In this document: one piece after another, positions 18,010-25,756 of the stretch
Layout of the letters: every line of letters starts with the position of its first letter
How positions within the stretch are numbered: the first letter of the stretch is position 1
Assembly (NCBI RefSeq): GCF_017814435.1
Contig: NZ_JAGJCB010000024.1
Coordinates: forward strand, 1-49,572
Source: Mariniflexile gromovii
Lineage (GTDB): Bacteria > Bacteroidota > Bacteroidia > Flavobacteriales > Flavobacteriaceae
Reading direction: 5' to 3'
Length of the DNA: 49,572 bases
Program-made: the position numbers and the translations under genes
The notes under the pieces: generated by a model
The model's database searches: none
Seen by the model: the letters and a program-made list of their open reading frames with translations, nothing else
Told to the model about the DNA's origin: nothing

Positions 18010-18468
18010 CTACTTTGAAATATCTTCAAGTCTTTTTACAGTATTTAAGGCTGTTTTTACACTAACCATTTGATTGTAAACTACATTGTTCACATCTGAA
18101 AAGTTACTAACTTTTTCAAGTTGTTTTTCATATTCGTTTACACTGGCTTTTTCACCTCTGATGCATTCTTCAAGAATTGCTTCGTCTGTGTTAGAACTTA
18201 AAGTGGTTTTTACATCAATCCATGCTCTATGTGCAGATCCTAAAAGCGAACCATCTTTAACAGGTGTTGCATGTAAGTTTCTTATTAAGCCATCTAATTC
18301 ATTTGCAAATTGGCTTCTTTGTTTCGCTTTATCTTGCAACCACTGTTTCAAAACTGTATTCTCAGCTTTCTGCATTATTTGTTTGTAACCTGCTTCAGCA
18401 TCGTAATTTTTCTGAAGCAATTCTTGTAATATATTTACGGTTTCTTCGTTTGCTTTTGTAATTTCCAT
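18010..18468 (-). CDS. PA2169-family four-helix-bundle protein (DUF2383)
   Basis: This 152-residue all-helical, ferritin-like protein has ETVNILQELLQKNYDAEAGY, ENTVLKQWLQDKAKQR, GSLLGSAHRAWIDVKTTLSS and ILEECIRGEKASVNEYEK. This is the PA2169/DUF2383 family, often upregulated in stress or stationary phase; biochemical role unknown. No signal peptide, so cytoplasmic. It is cotranscribed with its neighbours (27 and 34 bases). Confidence 0.85.
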   Translation of the reverse strand: MEITKANEETVNILQELLQKNYDAEAGYKQIMQKAENTVLKQWLQDKAKQRSQFANELDGLIRNLHATPVKDGSLLGSAHRAWIDVKTTLSSNTDEAILEECIRGEKASVNEYEKQLEKVSNFSDVNNVVYNQMVSVKTALNTVKRLEDISK

Positions 18469-18495
18469 AATTTTAATTTTTAAAATTTATTTAAT

Positions 18496-18999
18496 TTAAA
18501 ACTGATATCTAACGCCTAGGGCAATATCAAAATCCAAGTCATTGTTATCATAAACTTCGTCACCAAATCCTATTTCGGGTCTGAAATCGAGGGATAATAA
18601 TAAAGGAAAATCGAAATTATATTCTATACCAATGTCACCAGCGGCAAATACAAACGTATCACTACGGTCATTACCATTGCCATTATTAAAATCATCGTTA
18701 AAACTATAAGATCCTAAACCGCCACCAACACCAGCGTACCAATTAAAGCCGCCATCGATATTCCACACCCATTGGTGTAATGCTGCTAGTTTAAAACCAT
18801 CATAGTATCTACTATCTCTCCAACCAAGGTCAAACTCTAATCTTTTATTAGCGTTTAAAGCTCTTTGGTAGGAAACTTCGGCTCCAAAACCATCACTATC
18901 ACCTAAACGTAATCCTAATGCGTTTTTTGAAATATCTTGCGCATTCATTGATACTGTTGCTATTAATATTAGAATACCAGTTATTAAATATGTTTTCAT
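18496..18999 (-). CDS. Small predicted outer-membrane beta-barrel protein
   Basis: The 167-residue product has a signal peptide (MKTYLITGILILIATVSMNA, then Q), alternating aromatic strands such as ALGLRLGDSDGFGAEVSYQR and WNIDGGFNWYAGVGGGLGSY, and a C-terminal GVRYQF ending in Phe, the usual beta-signal for outer membrane insertion. No specific family recognised; length suggests an eight-strand barrel. It sits in operon A. Confidence 0.65.
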   Translation of the reverse strand: MKTYLITGILILIATVSMNAQDISKNALGLRLGDSDGFGAEVSYQRALNANKRLEFDLGWRDSRYYDGFKLAALHQWVWNIDGGFNWYAGVGGGLGSYSFNDDFNNGNGNDRSDTFVFAAGDIGIEYNFDFPLLLSLDFRPEIGFGDEVYDNNDLDFDIALGVRYQF

Positions 19000-19038
19000 T
19001 TTTTTCTTTTTGGTTTTTTAGTCTTTATAAACTAATAA

Positions 19039-19701
19039 TTATTTTTTTGCCTCGGCGTTTTCATCTGATTTTGCGCCCATTCTATTTACTGTGTACATAG
19101 GTGCAAATTTCAATTTTAAAGCGGCAATTTTTCTGTTATCTTCACTAGACAAACCTTCTTTTTCGACGGTGTTTTTTCTAGTGTCGATGGCTTCGTAAAT
19201 CAATTTAATTTCATCCCAATCTTCACGAGAATATGAATCTTTGTTTTTATCAACGGTATCAACAAAATTTTGGTAAACACCTAAAATATTATCTTTGTTA
19301 ATCCATGCAAACTGCATGTCGCCACCTGTGTATTCACTTCCTAATAATGATTTGCGAATCATCATTTTTGAATTTTCGGCTTTCATTATTTCATGTTCAG
19401 CAATCACTTCCGATTTAAATTTTTCATATTTTAAGGTTGCTTGATCCACGTCATTTTGCAATACTGAATTCTCTTCTACAGATGTGATAGAATTATCCAC
19501 ATCAGCTTTCATTTTTTGATAGTTTGCTTCAATAGCTTCCCAATTTTCAGCGGCCTCATCAACTGCTTCACGACTAACGGAATCTATATAAAATTCGAAA
19601 TTGTCTACTTTTTTTTCAGCCACATTTTTCTGGCTATCGTTACATGCAACAAACATTGCTGATGCTACAACGAGTCCTAATGTTATTTTTAATGTTTTCA
19701 T
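19039..19701 (-). CDS. Helical lipoprotein of operon A, function unknown
   Basis: The 220-residue lipoprotein has signal MKTLKITLGLVVASAMFVAC (Cys20) followed by NDSQKN. The mature part is mostly alpha-helical and highly charged (DEAAENWEAIEANYQKMKAD, YEKFKSEVIAEHEIMKAE), with a short conserved-looking ISxAW-like stretch DMQFAWINKDNILGVYQNF. No named domain could be assigned. It follows YtxH by 74 bases and precedes the barrel gene by 39. Confidence 0.65.
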   Translation of the reverse strand: MKTLKITLGLVVASAMFVACNDSQKNVAEKKVDNFEFYIDSVSREAVDEAAENWEAIEANYQKMKADVDNSITSVEENSVLQNDVDQATLKYEKFKSEVIAEHEIMKAENSKMMIRKSLLGSEYTGGDMQFAWINKDNILGVYQNFVDTVDKNKDSYSREDWDEIKLIYEAIDTRKNTVEKEGLSSEDNRKIAALKLKFAPMYTVNRMGAKSDENAEAKK

Positions 19702-19775
19702 TTTACTTTTTTTTTATTTGATTAATTACTTCTTACTTGAAGACGATTCAGTTCTTTTGGTTTGCTTTTTTAAGC

Positions 19776-20030
19776 TTAAGAATTCGTCGTTTTTTTTACT
19801 TCTTTTTTTCCTTTTTCAAGAATTTCTTCCCCACTTTTAACTGCCGTTTCATACTTTTTAGATACGGTATCTAAAAAATTATCAAACTCTTCTTTTAGTG
19901 TTTCTTTAGCTTCAATAGTTTTGTTTTTAATTTTTTTTCTTGTTTTTGATCCTTTATCTGGTGCAAATAACACCCCTAATATGGCTCCTGTAGCAATTCC
20001 TGCTAATACGCCTAATACATTTGATTTCAT
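19776..20030 (-). CDS. YtxH-domain protein
   Basis: The 84-residue protein has one glycine-rich membrane segment (GVLAGIATGAILGVLFAPDK) followed by GSKTRKKIKNKTIEAKETLK and a charged helix, the standard YtxH domain. YtxH is part of the general stress group in Bacillus; its molecular role is unknown. It is in operon A between the lmo0937-type gene and a lipoprotein. Confidence 0.88.
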   Translation of the reverse strand: MKSNVLGVLAGIATGAILGVLFAPDKGSKTRKKIKNKTIEAKETLKEEFDNFLDTVSKKYETAVKSGEEILEKGKKEVKKTTNS

Positions 20031-20102
20031 AATTTGTTTTTTTAAATTTATAATTAGTCATCATGTTGTTGATGCTTTTGTTTTTTTAAGTTGGAATTGA
20101 AA

Positions 20103-20255
20103 CTATACGCCTCTACCACCAATTAATCTTAGTAGTATGGCTATTACAGCTATTACTAATAAAATATGTATCAATCCTCCTGCACTGTAAACGAAGAACC
20201 CTAAAGCCCAACCTATTATAAGTACAACCGCTACTAGATATAATAAACTTCTCAT
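20103..20255 (-). CDS. lmo0937-type small membrane protein
   Basis: The 50-residue product (ATG 20255) starts MRSLLYLVAVVLIIGWALGF: two membrane helices joined by FVYSAGGLIH, ending in RLIGGRGV. This matches the lmo0937 / DUF5670 family of tiny membrane proteins, often near stress genes. It starts 19 bases before the stop of the upstream lipoprotein gene's downstream edge (20274). Confidence 0.8.
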   Translation of the reverse strand: MRSLLYLVAVVLIIGWALGFFVYSAGGLIHILLVIAVIAILLRLIGGRGV

Positions 20256-20273
20256 AATATTTAATTTTAATGG

Positions 20274-20843
20274 TTAATAATTTGTTTTTAGAATTTTTTG
20301 TGTTTGATTTAAATTATAATTTAAATTCACTAATATTTTTACAGTTAGTACCTTAAAATCTACATCATTTGTAATGTTTGATAAATATTCCAATTGTGTA
20401 ATTTGATTTTTTAATAAGGCTTCAATTTTTTTTAAATAGATTTCAGAAAAATCAGCTTTTTCATTTTCATGTAGCTCGAGTATTTCATTTTCATCTATTT
20501 TGTTTGGTAATAGAATCAATTTTTTTTCTGCTAATTCATTTAAGCTTTTTTTAATTTTTAGGTTGTCTTTTTTTAACTTATTTGATATGTTTTTAACATG
20601 ATAATTATTGCTTTTTCCTTTTACGGAATCACTCATAGCTATTAGAGTTTCGTTCAATATTGCTATGTCTGACATTATTTTGGCTTCTTCTATATTAACT
20701 TGAACTCTTTTGTTTATAGCTTCATTATTGTATAGATTGTTTTCGTTTTCATCTCTATCAAAATCGCAAGAAAATATGCTGACACCTACTGAAATGATTA
20801 ATGTAAGCGTTAATTGTTTTTTTATGTTTTTATTAATTATCAC
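20274..20843 (-). CDS. Helical lipoprotein, first gene of operon A
   Basis: The 189-residue lipoprotein has a signal ending ISVGVSIFSC (Cys26), followed by DFDRDENEN, an acidic stretch that may act as a surface export signal. The mature part is helical and rich in Asn, Lys and Leu, like a four-helix bundle (DUF4142-like in layout, not assigned). The start at 20843 lies 20 bases from the TACAAAG promoter core of the shared box region. Confidence 0.65.
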   Translation of the reverse strand: MIINKNIKKQLTLTLIISVGVSIFSCDFDRDENENNLYNNEAINKRVQVNIEEAKIMSDIAILNETLIAMSDSVKGKSNNYHVKNISNKLKKDNLKIKKSLNELAEKKLILLPNKIDENEILELHENEKADFSEIYLKKIEALLKNQITQLEYLSNITNDVDFKVLTVKILVNLNYNLNQTQKILKTNY

Positions 20844-20862: not shown

Positions 20863-20931
20863 TACAAAGATGCAACCCATACCGAGGTTTTGCGTTACAG
20901 CATTTTTAAGGTTTGTTATAGAATTTCAATA
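20863..20931 (-). promoter_or_regulatory. Operon A promoter with shared upstream box
   Basis: Plus-strand view: TACAAAG at 20863-20869 (minus-strand -7 CATCTTTG at 20865-20872, one mismatch to TAnnTTTG) and GTTTGTTATAGAATTT + CAATA at 20911-20931. The same two blocks, with the same 48-base offset, occur at 25688-25756 before operon B. The box edge is 38 bases upstream of the -7 octamer, a position suited to an activator. TGTAA on the minus strand between them is also shared. Confidence 0.7.
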
Positions 20932-20945
20932 CTGTAGGTTTGAAA

Positions 20946-20982
20946 TAAAAAAAAGCCCTAAAGAATTTTACTTTAGAGCTTT
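20946..20982 (-). terminator. Terminator of operon B (after the CHASE3 kinase)
   Basis: On the minus strand AAAGCTCTAAAG pairs with CTTTAGGGCTTT around a 7-base loop (one mismatch or G-U-like position), followed by eight T. It separates operon B from the operon A promoter. Confidence 0.8.
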
Positions 20983-21012
20983 AAATGTACTTTTTAGAGT
21001 TTGTTAAACTAC

Positions 21013-22797
21013 TTATATGGGAAGGTAAATAGTGAAAATGGCCCCTATATTAGGCTCGCCATTGGCTATAATGATTCCGTTATGATTATCTATAATTTTT
21101 TTACAGATGGAAAGTCCAACGCCAGTTCCTGAATATTCTTGTTTGTTATGAAGTCTGTTAAATAATTCGAATATTTGATTGGCATATTGTTGTTCAAAAC
21201 CAATACCGTTATCAGAAAAGGTTATTTTATGATATTCGTTTTTGGGTATATTTATTAAATTAATATCGTCTTTTGAATGGACTAGTTCATAGGTTATTTT
21301 AATAACAGGAGCCTCTGCAACTTTGCTGTACTTTAAGGAATTGCTTAACAAATTCAAAAACAATTGATGCACTTGAAAAGGGATTACAGAAACCGTAGGC
21401 AAAACATCGCTTGTAATAATGGCTTGTTTTTCTATAATTGTTTCGGCCACATCTTGTTTTGCTTGTTCTAAAAGTTCATTCAAATTGGTTAAAACAAATT
21501 CTTTATCGGGTTTGTTGGTTCTTGAAAACTGTAGCAAATCATCAATTAACAAACGCATTCTGGTAGCAGATACTTTTATGCGTTCTAAATATTGGTTGCC
21601 AGAAGCTGAAAGGTTTTTTGCTTCTTTATCTTCTAATCTGGAAATGAAGGTTTGGATTTTTCGTAAAGGTTCTTGTAAATCATGGCTGGCAACATAGTTG
21701 AATTCTGATAGTTCGGCGTTGTTTTTTTCCAATTCCAAATTACGTTCTTCAAGTTCTAGAAAACGCTCAATTTCATCAGATATATCCGTAATATTGCCAA
21801 CTATTCGTTTTTCACCATCATTATTTATCAATAGTTTTCCGTAGCCTTTTATATGTTTAACTGTTCCATCTTTTTTTATAATTCGATAGTAAGTAAAAGG
21901 CAGATCCTCTTCTTTCATCATCCTTTCAACATCAGCAGAAAACTTTTTCCGGTCGTCTGGATGCACAAATTCTAAAAAGGCCTCAAAAGTAGGTTCAAAA
22001 GCTCTTGGTTTTTCGCCTAAAACCCTGTATAGATTATCTGAAAAGGTATATTTATTACTTTCTACATACCACACCCAATTACCATGTTTACCTACGGTTT
22101 CCAACTGAATGGTAGCTTCTTTAAATATGGATAATTGGTTGTTTATTATTTTAATATTCTTAAAGTCATTATTTATTTTACTATATGAAACTATAATCAA
22201 CACAAGCGTTAACAATAGCATTAAATACAAAAATAATGGTGTGAATTCTAAATTGGATTGGTATTGTTTTTGGCGCTCTTGGAGGTGACGGTTTTCAAGA
22301 TCCATCATCTCGCTGATTTTATGCCTGATGGAATCCATAATTATTTTTTCTTCAAAAAAATTGGATTTAAACTCTTCAGTTAATGCAAATCCATTTTCAA
22401 CAAAAGCACTGGTTTGTGTAAAGTTTCTAAAAAGCGAATCGATGTACTTGCTTAATGTCTTTAAATTCTCTTCCTGTACAGGGCCGTGGTTTGCTATTTC
22501 TTTCAACTCAGCAAAAGACTCGTTAACTTTTTCCCTGGCTGTTAAATAAGGTTCTAAATGCGTTGTGTCTTTTGTTAGAATGTAATTTCTATGACCATTT
22601 TCAGCATCTTTTAAATAAGACATGACCTTCTCTAACTCAACGTTAACTTTAAAGGTGGTAACAACCAGTTTACTGGAGTTTGTTAAATTAGAAATATGCT
22701 TATATGTAAAACCGCCTATTAAAAGAATAAGAAAAACACTTATTAAAAAGATGATCCTTAAAAATATCGCGGATTTTGAAATTATGCGTTTAATCAT
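21013..22797 (-). CDS. CHASE3-PAS sensor histidine kinase
   Basis: The 594-residue kinase has TM1 (~12-32), a CHASE3-type extracytoplasmic helical domain (~40-180; YLKDAENGHRNYILTKDTTH), TM2 (~186-206), a PAS domain with PAC tail (~225-340; KDGTVKHIKGYGKLL, VGNITDIS), HisKA with H372 in ASHDLQEPLRK, and HATPase_c (FLNLLSNSLKYS; FSDNGIGFEQQ; YSGTGVGLSICKKI). It should sense an envelope or osmotic cue and phosphorylate a response regulator. Its ATG directly follows the stop of the response regulator gene (TAAATG), so the two are coupled. It ends operon B. Confidence 0.9.
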   Translation of the reverse strand: MIKRIISKSAIFLRIIFLISVFLILLIGGFTYKHISNLTNSSKLVVTTFKVNVELEKVMSYLKDAENGHRNYILTKDTTHLEPYLTAREKVNESFAELKEIANHGPVQEENLKTLSKYIDSLFRNFTQTSAFVENGFALTEEFKSNFFEEKIIMDSIRHKISEMMDLENRHLQERQKQYQSNLEFTPLFLYLMLLLTLVLIIVSYSKINNDFKNIKIINNQLSIFKEATIQLETVGKHGNWVWYVESNKYTFSDNLYRVLGEKPRAFEPTFEAFLEFVHPDDRKKFSADVERMMKEEDLPFTYYRIIKKDGTVKHIKGYGKLLINNDGEKRIVGNITDISDEIERFLELEERNLELEKNNAELSEFNYVASHDLQEPLRKIQTFISRLEDKEAKNLSASGNQYLERIKVSATRMRLLIDDLLQFSRTNKPDKEFVLTNLNELLEQAKQDVAETIIEKQAIITSDVLPTVSVIPFQVHQLFLNLLSNSLKYSKVAEAPVIKITYELVHSKDDINLINIPKNEYHKITFSDNGIGFEQQYANQIFELFNRLHNKQEYSGTGVGLSICKKIIDNHNGIIIANGEPNIGAIFTIYLPI

Positions 22798-23244
22798 TTA
22801 AAGCCTCATTAAAAAATTATCTTTATTTAAACTATTTGTATGGTATTGCCAATTCATAGACACAACTTCGGCCAATACTTTTTTAAGTTGTTTAAAGCTG
22901 CTTGGTTTTTTTATGTAAATATTAGCCCCCAGCACAAAGGTTTCTTCAATATCTTCTTCTGATGCTGAAGTGGAGTAAATAGCAATGGCGATATCAGACA
23001 TTTTGCTATTGGCTTTAATTTCGTTTAAGCACTCAATACCATTTTTTAAGGGCATGTTTAAATCTAAAAAAAGCACGTTGGGCAATATGGCATCTTCGCT
23101 GTTTAAATAGTCCATAAGTTCTACACCATCATTAAACGTGTTTACTTTGGTGTTCATCTTTAACTCATCAAAAGCATCGGTAAAAAATAGTCTGTCATCT
23201 TCATCGTCATCAGCAAGAATAATATGTATATAATCGTTAGGCAT
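22798..23244 (-). CDS. Single-domain response regulator
   Basis: The 148-residue REC domain has no output domain: acidic pocket DDDEDD (11-17), phosphoacceptor D61 in VLFLDLNMPLKNG, switch Ser/Thr in IYSTSASEEDIEE, and Lys in YIKKPSSF (112-113). This is the Rcp1-like type that often works with PAS histidine kinases. The next gene, the kinase, starts immediately; the AraC-type gene upstream ends 21 bases before its start. Its output is probably another protein rather than DNA. Confidence 0.9.
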   Translation of the reverse strand: MPNDYIHIILADDDEDDRLFFTDAFDELKMNTKVNTFNDGVELMDYLNSEDAILPNVLFLDLNMPLKNGIECLNEIKANSKMSDIAIAIYSTSASEEDIEETFVLGANIYIKKPSSFKQLKKVLAEVVSMNWQYHTNSLNKDNFLMRL

Positions 23245-23265
23245 AAGGGATTTTGTAAAAATTGG

Positions 23266-23829
23266 TTAGTTTTTTTGTTGAGCAATACTTCGCCTTTTAG
23301 AAATGATACGCTGAAAAGCAGAAGGCGTAATACCCGTAGCATTTTTAAATTGGGTACTTAAATGTGCTACACTAGAATAATTAAGTTTGAAGGCTATTTC
23401 GGTTAAGCTTAAATCGGTTGTTAACAACAATTGCTTAGTATATTCTATTTTTTGAATGATGATGAAGTTTTCAATAGAGGTATAAGTAACCTCTGAAAAC
23501 AGGTTGGAAAGGTAGCCGTAACTGTGTCCTAATTTTTCGGATAAATACACAGAACTTTTAACGTTTACAGTAGAATCTTCATTAAAAACCATATCAATAA
23601 TAGCGTCTTTAATTTTTTGGACCAGAATGCTTTTTTGATTTTCAACTATTTCAATTCCGTAACTGTTTAAAGCATCATTTAAAGCTTCGTATTTTTCTGA
23701 AGGTACTTTTTCCAGTAACTCAACTTCTCCAAAAGCAAGAATTCTGTATTTTATGTCGAGTTCTTCTAACTTCGTTTCTAGAACTTTTTTACAAATGGTG
23801 TTAAAGTCAAACTTTATAAATAATTTCAT
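23266..23829 (-). CDS. AraC-family transcriptional regulator
   Basis: The 187-residue protein has a small N-terminal domain (1-80) and a C-terminal AraC double helix-turn-helix (~85-180), with LSLTEIAFKLNYSSVAHLST as HTH1/HTH2 linker and QFKNATGITPSAFQRI as the family signature. Flavobacteriaceae often carry such short AraC proteins next to REC and kinase genes. It is the only DNA-binding protein in the stress block, so the best candidate reader of the 21-nt box at 20911 and 25736; that link is inference. A weak box-like stretch (TTTTGTTATA) lies at 23864. Confidence 0.88.
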   Translation of the reverse strand: MKLFIKFDFNTICKKVLETKLEELDIKYRILAFGEVELLEKVPSEKYEALNDALNSYGIEIVENQKSILVQKIKDAIIDMVFNEDSTVNVKSSVYLSEKLGHSYGYLSNLFSEVTYTSIENFIIIQKIEYTKQLLLTTDLSLTEIAFKLNYSSVAHLSTQFKNATGITPSAFQRIISKRRSIAQQKN

Positions 23830-23992
23830 ATGTAGATAATATCTGTTTTCTCAATGGGCGTGGTTTTGTTATATATTCTATTAACATCCTTTTGCACATT
23901 TCATATAAACTTTTAATTATTGTAAAGTTAATAAAGCATTTTGTTTTAATCTCGATTTATTTAACACTAAAAAACATTTATGTAACTATTAT

Positions 23993-25105
23993 TTATTTAG
24001 CATTTCTAATGCTTTTCCATTTTTTTAATCGCATCCGTGCTTTACTTTGAAGGTGTTTATTTACAGGTTCTCCTATAAGGAATCCGTACGCTTCATAGCC
24101 AGGTGTATTGTCAAACAGTATTTTTAAAGTTGCTGTTATTGGTAAGGCTAGAATCATGCCTGTTATACCCCAAAGCATGGAAAACAAAACCAATGAAGAA
24201 ATAGCTACAAATGCATTGACACTTACTTTTGAGCCTGTAATTTTAGGAGTTATAAAATTGCCTTCTAAAAATTGAATAAACCCGAAAACAGCAATAACAC
24301 CAAAAGCGTACCAAGCAGAATCCTTAGTCGCCAAAGCGATGATGGCAGGCAATAACGACCCTATAATAACACCTATGTAAGGTATTAATAGTAAAAATGC
24401 TGCTAAAAACCCGAAGAAAAACGGATTGCCTATACCTAAAAGCAATAAGCCTAGACTATTTAAACAGCCAACAATTACAATAACTATAATTAAACCTAAC
24501 AGATAATTCTGCTGAATTTCTACGATTTTTTTTAGAATTTTGTTGATAAATGATTTGTCTCTCGTCCTAAAAACTTTATAAAGAAACGTTCTAAAAAAAG
24601 CCCTGTAGTAAAGGAAAAAAAATATGTAAATGGGGATTAACACCAAATCACTTAAAAGACTACTGGATTCAGATAATAGAACGCCTATTTTATCTAAATT
24701 GTCTTTTATGATATTTTCTGCTTTAAGTTCGTTTTGCGAAAAAAGCCTGTTGTTACCTATATTAAATATGTGTTCTAAACTATTTACCGAATTATGAAAT
24801 AGCTCTCCCAATTTTTGCGAGTACACTTCGATATTATCCATAAAATACATTAATCGTGTGCTAATTAATGTGAATATTAATGCAGTTATGAAAAATAAGG
24901 TAGTTAAAGACGTTAATGTTGCAAACAATCTATTGCAACGCCATTTTTTTTCTAGAAACCTTTGAATGGGAAATATCATTACGCTAAGTATAATAGCGAA
25001 TAATATAGGTACAATAAAAGGCTTAATTATATATAAAATAAAAACCACAGCAATTAGTGACAATAAACTTAATGCACTGTGACTCACGTGGCTTTTTGTA
25101 TTCAT
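23993..25105 (-). CDS. AI-2E family transporter
   Basis: The 370-residue, eight-helix membrane protein of the AI-2E (PerM/TqsA) family has YIIKPFIVPILFAIILSVMI at the N-terminus, FFFGFLAAFLLLIPYIGVII and LEGNFITPKITGSKVSVNAF. Members export small molecules or Na+/H+ in various hosts; substrate here unknown. It ends in a basic tail (KSKARMRLKKWKSIRNAK). It belongs to operon B between the decayed CsbD gene and the AraC gene (163-base gap). Confidence 0.88.
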   Translation of the reverse strand: MNTKSHVSHSALSLLSLIAVVFILYIIKPFIVPILFAIILSVMIFPIQRFLEKKWRCNRLFATLTSLTTLFFITALIFTLISTRLMYFMDNIEVYSQKLGELFHNSVNSLEHIFNIGNNRLFSQNELKAENIIKDNLDKIGVLLSESSSLLSDLVLIPIYIFFFLYYRAFFRTFLYKVFRTRDKSFINKILKKIVEIQQNYLLGLIIVIVIVGCLNSLGLLLLGIGNPFFFGFLAAFLLLIPYIGVIIGSLLPAIIALATKDSAWYAFGVIAVFGFIQFLEGNFITPKITGSKVSVNAFVAISSLVLFSMLWGITGMILALPITATLKILFDNTPGYEAYGFLIGEPVNKHLQSKARMRLKKWKSIRNAK

Positions 25106-25137
25106 TTATTAAATAAAAGTTTTAGTAAAAATAAAAA

Positions 25138-25210
25138 ACTGTCTAGAGATTACAAAGCACGATTTCACTAACCAACCAAACAACCATAATTTGCAACAAT
25201 TCTAGACAGT
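25138..25210. repeat. 10-bp inverted repeat flanking a TACAAAG core upstream of the AI-2E gene
   Basis: ACTGTCTAGA (25138-25147) and TCTAGACAGT (25201-25210) are exact reverse complements, 53 bases apart. TACAAAG at 25151-25157, next to the left arm, reads GCTTTGTA on the minus strand, like the promoter cores of operons A and B. It may be a secondary promoter or operator for the AI-2E gene. Confidence 0.5.
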
Positions 25211-25249
25211 ATGCTTTTTCTTTAAATTTGAAATAATTTTGTATGTTTC

Positions 25250-25408
25250 TTATTTACTTTTACCAAGTTTTTCTTGGAATCTACCAACTAACTCATCTTT
25301 TCTTTTTCTTCTAATTAGAAGTAAATCATCATCTGTTAAGGTAGCGTATTTTTGTTTTAATTTTCTTTTTAACCTATTTTAGTTTCCTTTTGTTTCTGTA
25401 GGGTGAAA
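25250..25408 (-). pseudogene. Decayed CsbD-family stress protein gene
   Basis: On the minus strand the frame ending at TAA 25250-25252 encodes LKQKYATLTDDDLLLI, then RRKRKDELVGRFQEKLGKSK, clearly the CsbD core (normally GKLKQKY..LTDDDL...EGKEDELxGRxQ). The expected GNW tryptophan is a stop (TAA at 25379-25381), the EGKE stretch reads RRKR, and no start codon precedes TETKGN. CsbD is a short general stress protein of unknown mechanism; this copy cannot be made in full. Confidence 0.7.
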
Positions 25409-25437
25409 GATTTTAAAAAGTTACAATTCTGTTTTTT

Positions 25438-25644
25438 TTAAGCCTTCTTTCCACCTAAAAAATTAATAAGAATAGCAAAAAGTCCTAAGCCCATAGTTAT
25501 AAACGCATTGGTGTTGTCTTGTGCCTCAACAAGATCTAAATCGCCAATACTAATTTGTGTTTCTGGTATAATCATGTTATAAATACCGTAACCCAACATT
25601 ACAATACCTATTATCATTAAAATTGATTTTATACTCTTGCTCAT
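25438..25644 (-). CDS. DUF3185-family small membrane protein
   Basis: The chosen start is ATG 25644 (MSKSIKSILMIIGIVMLGYG), giving 68 residues with two membrane helices (about 6-24 and 46-63) joined by a loop YNMIIPETQISIGDLDLVEA. The open frame upstream to 25692 would run through the promoter octamer at 25690-25697, so the shorter start is preferred; AAAGG precedes it. DUF3185 members are small membrane proteins of unknown function. It is the first gene of operon B. Confidence 0.75.
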   Translation of the reverse strand: MSKSIKSILMIIGIVMLGYGIYNMIIPETQISIGDLDLVEAQDNTNAFITMGLGLFAILINFLGGKKA

Positions 25645-25687
25645 ACCTTTATTTTTTAATTGGTTGTAAGGCTGCTTAACTATATAA

Positions 25688-25756
25688 TACAAAGGTATGG
25701 TGGATGGAAGCGTTCGCTATTACATAATTACTGCCGTTTGTTATAGAATTTTAATA
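25688..25756 (-). promoter_or_regulatory. Operon B promoter with shared upstream box
   Basis: TACAAAG at 25688-25694 (minus-strand -7 TACCTTTG at 25690-25697, exact TAnnTTTG) and GTTTGTTATAGAATTT + TAATA at 25736-25756, 48 bases apart as in operon A. The box is 38 bases upstream of the -7 octamer. 20 of 21 box positions are identical to operon A, and similarity continues weakly for ~25 bases into the terminator A/T run. Confidence 0.72.

Follow-up and report, generated by a model that had tools for sequence, protein, structure and literature searches.

What reads the short DNA box that stands before two stress-type operons of Mariniflexile gromovii? Both operons lie on contig NZ_JAGJCB010000024.1, of which positions 1 to 49,572 were analysed; this stretch is called the window here. 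Two copies of the box GTTTGTTATAGAATTT(C/T)AATA, identical at 20 of 21 positions, occur at 20911-20931 and 25736-25756, before operon A and operon B respectively, and operon B itself encodes an AraC-type regulator. Comparisons across the family and the phylum lead us to propose that the box is very probably the distal half of a two-part operator for this AraC activator, which would run a stress/envelope regulon in this organism.

The two promoters are built alike. TACAAAG starts at 20863 and 25688, 48 bases below the respective box, and the distance from the box to the -7 octamer is 38 bases in both cases; an earlier note on this DNA gave these figures together with the 21-nt boxes and their identity, and all were confirmed on the sequence. 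Read on the minus strand, which is the gene strand, the octamer of promoter B (25697-25690) fits TAnnTTTG and that of promoter A (20872-20865) is one letter off. The note also described the DNA between box and core promoter as otherwise different, which holds save for one element: a second, weaker copy of the core begins 21 bp after the first at both promoters (AAATGCTGTAACG in A, TAATTATGTAATA in B). The full layout is AAATTCTATAACA-N8-AAATTNTRTAACA-N20-TAnnTTTG with a period of 21 bp, and the box is just half of a tandem site. Random occurrence in the genome, or absence before the same operons in relatives, had been named as grounds for giving up the idea of a shared box. The literal box is not scattered: the whole 4.28-Mb genome holds four matches with at most three mismatches (the two of the window and two with three mismatches each) against one for the backwards pattern, and two such matches arose in 0 of 100 dinucleotide shuffles of the window (mean 0.04). 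In related species the tandem form precedes the equivalent operons, and the locus of Mariniflexile fucanivorans (L038) has both exact boxes. Because the exact 16-mer core matched just two of 199 family genomes (the organism's own and G107), it is only the tandem consensus, not the literal box, that is conserved.

How general is this layout? With the AraC protein as query we fetched 80 loci, termed the named loci, which with the window make 81 sequences; these loci are mutually related, so that the sites in them are not independent. The literal box fades in the 80 named loci and the core recurs, several times 21 or 22 bp from a second core. The sequences were scanned for a core, a second core 21 bp on and TAnnTTTG 33 nt further (1 either way), with five of the six letters of TAnnTTTG demanded, so that promoters with other cores escape detection. 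Score cut-offs were set after the fact and several are therefore given: at a score of at least 23 there were 207 sites in 77 of the 81 sequences against 15 on the reversed sequence, at 24 or more 175 sites in 75 sequences against 2, and at 25 or more 147 sites in 69 sequences against none. At the lowest of these cut-offs other periods (15 to 29) gave 7-19 sites each, and 10-27 were obtained with gaps outside 32-34. The column profile of 131 of the 175 sites reads AAATT-N-TRTAAca twice, followed by TAnCTTTGTA; the conserved columns form direct repeats, and an inverted-repeat site was dropped for that reason. Outside the window 165 of 173 of these sites are oriented as the AraC gene, and the window's two are likewise. 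In some relatives a second complete tandem site lies about 96-123 bp from the first, which looks like a stacking of two such promoters (L043, 12914 and 13037; L056, 12888 and 12984; L111, 17900 and 17999).

The genes that follow the 175 sites point to a recurrent set of targets. The largest cluster of first open reading frames (ORFs) has 45 members, 39 of which match the window's DUF4142 protein; AraC itself comes first after 19 sites and a 50-aa protein, whose window copy is DUF5670, after 18. AI-2E (12), DUF6565-like (8), the 68-aa protein (7) and DUF2383 (6) follow, together with Dps-like (8), outer-membrane-like (8), MlaE-like (6) and CsbD-like (6) ORFs, these last four labels being our own reading, and the remainder fall into smaller clusters, many of them single. 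A sequence-only profile (R1) was built from 79 sites, among them those of the window, M. maritimum, strain AS56 and M. fucanivorans. Ten sites in M. gromovii reach E<1e-3 with it; two are those of the window and eight lay outside the training set, whereas the earlier note had envisaged a two-operon system. An ORF starts within about 55 nt of each of the eight: YtxH, a 47-aa ORF followed by a 338-aa AraC regulator, an outer-membrane beta-barrel, a 56-aa ORF, DUF1328, a lipocalin-like protein, a second beta-barrel and an 85-aa lipoprotein-like ORF (the 56- and 85-aa ORFs have no Pfam match). We discarded an eleventh match (G000:C24:222, E 0.0015), which falls within a coding ORF. R1 is not fully sensitive in genome scans, having missed a site in G353, 1.16 kb downstream of AraC, which the tandem scan scored at 28. 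The site before the 47-aa ORF and the 338-aa AraC-type regulator (L121, G000:C45:113632-113701) might mark a second layer of a cascade.

Could the boxes simply be the remnant of a recent local promoter duplication, with no trans-acting regulator behind them? The presence in one genome of two near-identical boxes, separated by 4.8 kb, would fit such an origin, yet the sequence between box and -7 element differs save for the second half-site, the same layout stands at eight other places in this genome and in 75 of the 81 sequences (score of at least 24), and its placement downstream of AraC genes in the 60-locus set described below contradicts a duplication as well. We therefore hold this origin to be extremely unlikely. 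The earlier note had also set a recent duplication aside, and both this and its proposal of a shared regulatory box tied to the AraC-type protein of operon B are supported by the comparative evidence.

What would a protein bound at the tandem site do? No TTG is conserved in the 131-site profile at columns 41-43, which we take to be the position of the -33 element. The sites end in TAnnTTTG, the sigma-A element, and an alternative sigma factor or SigB-type core promoter was rejected on that ground. A start-site mapping study in Flavobacterium psychrophilum places TAnnTTTG at -12 to -5, and the proximal half-site would therefore lie at about -45 to -33 (PMC9723704). With a period of 21 bp and a gap of 32-34 nt, the site appears to present tandem direct repeats over the -35/-33 region at near-fixed spacing. 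A protein seated there could also block polymerase, and the AraC protein might act as a repressor that is freed by a signal. We think this improbable, as no conserved -33 TTG lies under the site and the promoters look weak unaided, as in class II activation; moreover, a near-constant spacing to the -7 element would be expected if the bound protein touches polymerase.

Does the motif follow the AraC gene? Among 59 relatives besides the organism's own genome, the motif was found at E<1e-4 in 12 of 12 with an AraC ortholog and in 3 of 47 without (Fisher 4e-10); the ortholog cut of 165 bits was picked after seeing both lists and falls in a gap of the best-per-genome scores from 169 to 144 bits. 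In two of the three ortholog-less relatives the motif lies directly downstream of a more distant AraC homolog (G028, G050), and in the third (G052) motif and distant homolog are on different contigs. Carriers of DUF2383 (n=19) divide in the same way, with the motif at E<1e-4 in 12 of 12 that have the ortholog and 0 of 7 that lack it (one of the latter, G022, has a weaker match at 0.005); the motif therefore follows the regulator and not this target gene. In a phylum sample of 296 genomes an AraC homolog (E<=1e-20) is present in 134, the motif (E<=1e-3) in 57 and both in 52, so that the homolog occurs in 52 of 57 motif-bearing genomes against 82 of 239 others. Of the five motif-bearing genomes without such a homolog, two (G236 and G240) have weaker AraC homologs with the motif 190 and 93 nt downstream.

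The position of the motif is as telling. By hand count, 18 of the 28 motif-bearing genomes outside the order show a same-strand match (E<=1e-3) no more than 2 kb downstream of AraC, and in 11 of these the distance is at most 140 nt. A set of 60 loci was assembled with the motif ignored, as the best AraC match of the first 60 class- or phylum-level genomes in rank order (seven more genomes, G276, G440, G464, G283, G489, G291 and G401, were left out, as were those without a listed position). At a score of at least 23 the motif stands downstream of AraC in 18 of these loci and upstream, on the opposite strand or in reversed sequence in none; at 22 or more the counts are 22, 0, 4 and 1. The period of 21 gives 18 loci and the next best period 7, and 40 shuffled cores gave no locus in 31 cases and five at most. 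Where the named loci have enough flank, the motif lies 1.5-3.5 kb downstream of AraC in 59 of 74, the place that follows the response regulator (REC) and kinase genes in the window, and within 3.5 kb upstream in 53 of 69, with both sides occupied in 40; 13 sites of score at least 23 fall within 500 bp upstream of AraC. At three loci with a CxxC-bearing AraC gene (L236; L238, from the same genome as L282; and L284) another gene stands between AraC and the tandem site of HMA/ATPase genes, and the link between gene and site can therefore survive the insertion of other genes.

These placements also bear on whether some other DNA-binding protein, such as a LytTR response regulator, reads the site while the AraC gene is a mere fellow target. 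Direct repeats with a spacing of about 21 bp also serve as sites for LytTR proteins, so that the spacing suits both families, and since the first ORF behind the motif is often AraC itself (19 of 175 sites) this alone could create the linkage. We regard such a reader as unlikely. In genomes related at class or phylum level the motif comes after the AraC gene and does not precede it (18 of 60 against 0), the next gene in distant genomes is often HMA or P-ATPase and not a stress gene, and the motif tracks AraC even among DUF2383 carriers. In 20 hand-picked loci, mostly chosen for a motif near AraC and so not used for counts (those of G343, G484, G417, G301, G273, G269, G243 and G375 recur in the 60-locus set), BLAST finds the window's REC in L243 alone and its kinase in L247 alone. 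The linked REC protein has no LytTR domain (Response_reg alone), LytTR genes elsewhere in the genome not having been searched for.

Several observations weigh against AraC as the reader of the site. The 12 of 12 is partly in-sample, as at least G002, G003 and G004 gave R1 training sequences, and the relatives are not independent of one another. Three genomes (G327, G371, G406) bear the motif (E 1e-4 to 5e-4) with no AraC homolog at E<=1e-10, and M. gromovii itself has 19 matches to AraC-type genes, many besides the window's. Outside the order, seven more motif-bearing genomes (G227, G283, G343, G353, G375, G404 and G438) have no E<=1e-3 match within 2 kb downstream of AraC. Of the 60 distant loci 42 lack a downstream site at score 23 in the fetched flank, and just 3 of 15 loci of the SxxC class described below reach 22; in many loci the motif has therefore diverged, is absent or lies elsewhere. 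We consider the neighbourhood results across families a stronger argument than the co-occurrence counts, which relatedness weakens, and on sequence comparison the architecture of the operator, its conservation and its genomic link to the AraC family are established.

What sort of protein is this AraC regulator? It matches Pfam HTH_18 at 9.7e-17, and an AlphaFold2 model (mean pLDDT 87, pTM 0.65) shows an alpha-beta part at the N-terminus and seven more helices. The eight Foldseek matches that reach E<=0.001 are without exception AraC-type DNA-binding domains; no significant match covers the N-terminal part. In the phylum set 45 of 60 homologs have a CxxC motif and 15 an SxxC; none of the 81 window-class proteins has CxxC in its first 40 residues (the window's reads KFDFNTICKKV), and 79 of the 80 from the named loci have neither motif, the last showing a chance-like SxxC match. 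By hhalign the N-termini of the window class match those of CxxC AraC proteins at 98.7% and HMA domains directly at 7.9%, and CxxC N-termini match HMA domains at 97.9%, both sets having been picked by CxxC. Pfam HMA scores 0.029, below cut-off, in the CxxC paralog of the same genome and gives no match to the window protein. A quick tree of 105 proteins gathers the window class (44 rows) in a single branch with full support and sets it on the same side as all 15 SxxC rows and four of the CxxC rows (support 93); because the tree is midpoint-rooted, we infer the direction of change. The N-terminal domain looks like a degenerate HMA domain, and as CxxC is gone the regulator probably no longer senses metal. 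In our own motif search the next five ORFs hold an HMA or P-type ATPase signature in 30 of 45 CxxC loci and 0 of 15 SxxC loci; by eye, several SxxC loci hold DUF5670-like, Dps-like or CsbD-like proteins. The three classes resemble one another in YxYLSxLFSE and SSVxHLSxQFK, the regions that we assign as putative recognition helices. The closest AraC proteins among the named loci are those of M. maritimum, Mariniflexile sp. AS56 and M. fucanivorans (89-95%). The CxxC paralog (L334, G000:C1:56000-61500) is closely followed by a variant of the tandem site, with two AAATTG(G/T)ATACAA repeats at a period of 21 bp, at a locus that also has a copper-type P-ATPase (TIGR01511 above cut-off), and the two paralogs of this cell may each read a different half-site variant of a shared layout.

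We propose the following mechanism. The AraC-type protein would bind both half-sites side by side and head to tail, on two direct repeats 21 bp apart, the proximal one at the -33 place upstream of the sigma-A type -7 element. Bound in this way it would replace the -33 contact, recruit RNA polymerase as a class II activator and turn on operons A and B and some eight other promoters, with small proteins, YtxH, beta-barrels, lipoproteins and another regulator as further targets. It would also switch on itself if co-transcribed with operon B, the self-regulation suggested in the earlier note: promoter B, which lies 1.9 kb upstream, may drive AraC transcription, though a 163-nt gap directly before the gene leaves room for a promoter of its own. 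The linked REC protein and CHASE3-PAS kinase would be the likely signal input; since the metal motif is gone and both genes follow AraC in the same direction, control is probably exerted through these partners, which is our guess. Binding by AraC, activation rather than repression, this input and a stress signal are what we infer from sequence. The features are collected in Table 1. The CsbD-like copy of the window is broken; intact copies lie between motif and AraC in L038, L039 and L040.

Table 1. Regulatory elements and genes of the two operons, by position in the window
Feature	Position	Strand	Basis
Operon A distal half-site, core AAATTCTATAACA	20914..20926	-	motif scan
Operon A proximal half-site AAATGCTGTAACG, 21 bp downstream of distal	20893..20905	-	motif scan
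Promoter A -7 element CATCTTTG, 1 off TAnnTTTG	20865..20872	-	sequence
Terminator-like hairpin after kinase gene, just upstream of promoter A	20952..20982	-	
Operon B distal half-site, core AAATTCTATAACA	25739..25751	-	motif scan
Operon B proximal half-site TAATTATGTAATA	25718..25730	-	motif scan
Promoter B -7 element TACCTTTG	25690..25697	-	sequence
Operon A, six genes (putatively one operon)	18010..20822	-	Pfam/ORFs
DUF4142 protein, operon A	20274-20822	-	Pfam
DUF5670 protein, operon A	20103-20255	-	Pfam
YtxH protein, operon A	19776-20030	-	Pfam
DUF6565-like protein, operon A, just under Pfam cut-off	19039-19701	-	
167-aa protein without Pfam match, operon A	18496-18999	-	
DUF2383 protein, operon A	18010-18468	-	Pfam
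68-aa protein without Pfam match, first gene after promoter B	25438..25644	-	
Broken CsbD-like gene (in-frame stops, no start), operon B	25223..25408	-	
AI-2E family transporter	23993..25105	-	Pfam
AraC-type regulator, 187 aa; proposed binder of tandem site	23266..23829	-	Pfam HTH_18 and comparisons
Single-domain response regulator (REC)	22798..23244	-	Pfam
CHASE3-PAS-HisKA-HATPase sensor kinase	21013..22797	-	Pfam

How does such a system compare with those already described? With the class II activators of the AraC/XylS family (E. coli AraC at araI1-I2, MarA/SoxS) it shares HTH_18, the AraC-type DNA-binding domain of the model and direct repeats 21 bp apart, the promoter-proximal one over -35/-33. 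It differs in its Bacteroidota sigma-A type promoter with TAnnTTTG, in its half-site sequence and, from E. coli AraC, in an N-terminal domain that is apparently HMA-derived and not the AraC cupin. Its target kinds, CsbD-like and YtxH-like small proteins, are those of the Bacillus SigB general stress regulon, but there is no sign of an alternative sigma factor and the -7 element is of the ordinary sigma-A type. Closest are the CxxC HMA-AraC homologs found in Bacteroidota beside HMA, P-type ATPase or CzcA-like genes (L334 among them), with similar length, domain order and recognition-helix regions; some of their loci also show this 21-bp tandem layout ahead of the -7 element. In contrast, the window protein lacks CxxC, has REC and a sensor kinase as neighbours, and its sites, which differ from the repeats of the CxxC paralog, stand before stress/envelope genes. 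The sigma-factor motif classes SM1-6 of F. psychrophilum have the same TAnnTTTG element at -12 to -5, and the accessible part of that study (PMC9723704) classes sigma motifs and holds no tandem upstream box. Searches of the open-access literature gave us no description of the motif or of an HMA-AraC regulator, which is weak evidence of novelty. Activation by an AraC-type protein is familiar; what would be new is a sensor apparently derived from HMA, an operator spread over the phylum and the shift from metal to stress.

What are the implications for the biology of these bacteria? The control of general stress genes in Bacteroidota is poorly known and, to our knowledge, the phylum lacks SigB and RpoS. 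Our comparisons point to an undescribed family of switches across the phylum, with the site before stress genes here and in relatives and before copper-type pump genes in distant relatives. We would give even chances to a wider scenario, in which an HMA-AraC metal sensor and its operator form a phylum-wide pair and the operator was kept, while in Flavobacteriaceae/Weeksellaceae the regulator lost its metal site (CxxC to SxxC to none), gained kinase/REC input and became the master activator of a stress/envelope regulon. The analysis offers a concrete candidate regulator, an operator with base-level predictions and an initial ten-site regulon in one genome, and it describes what seems to be a metal sensor that was rewired to a different input, its DNA site having stayed much the same.

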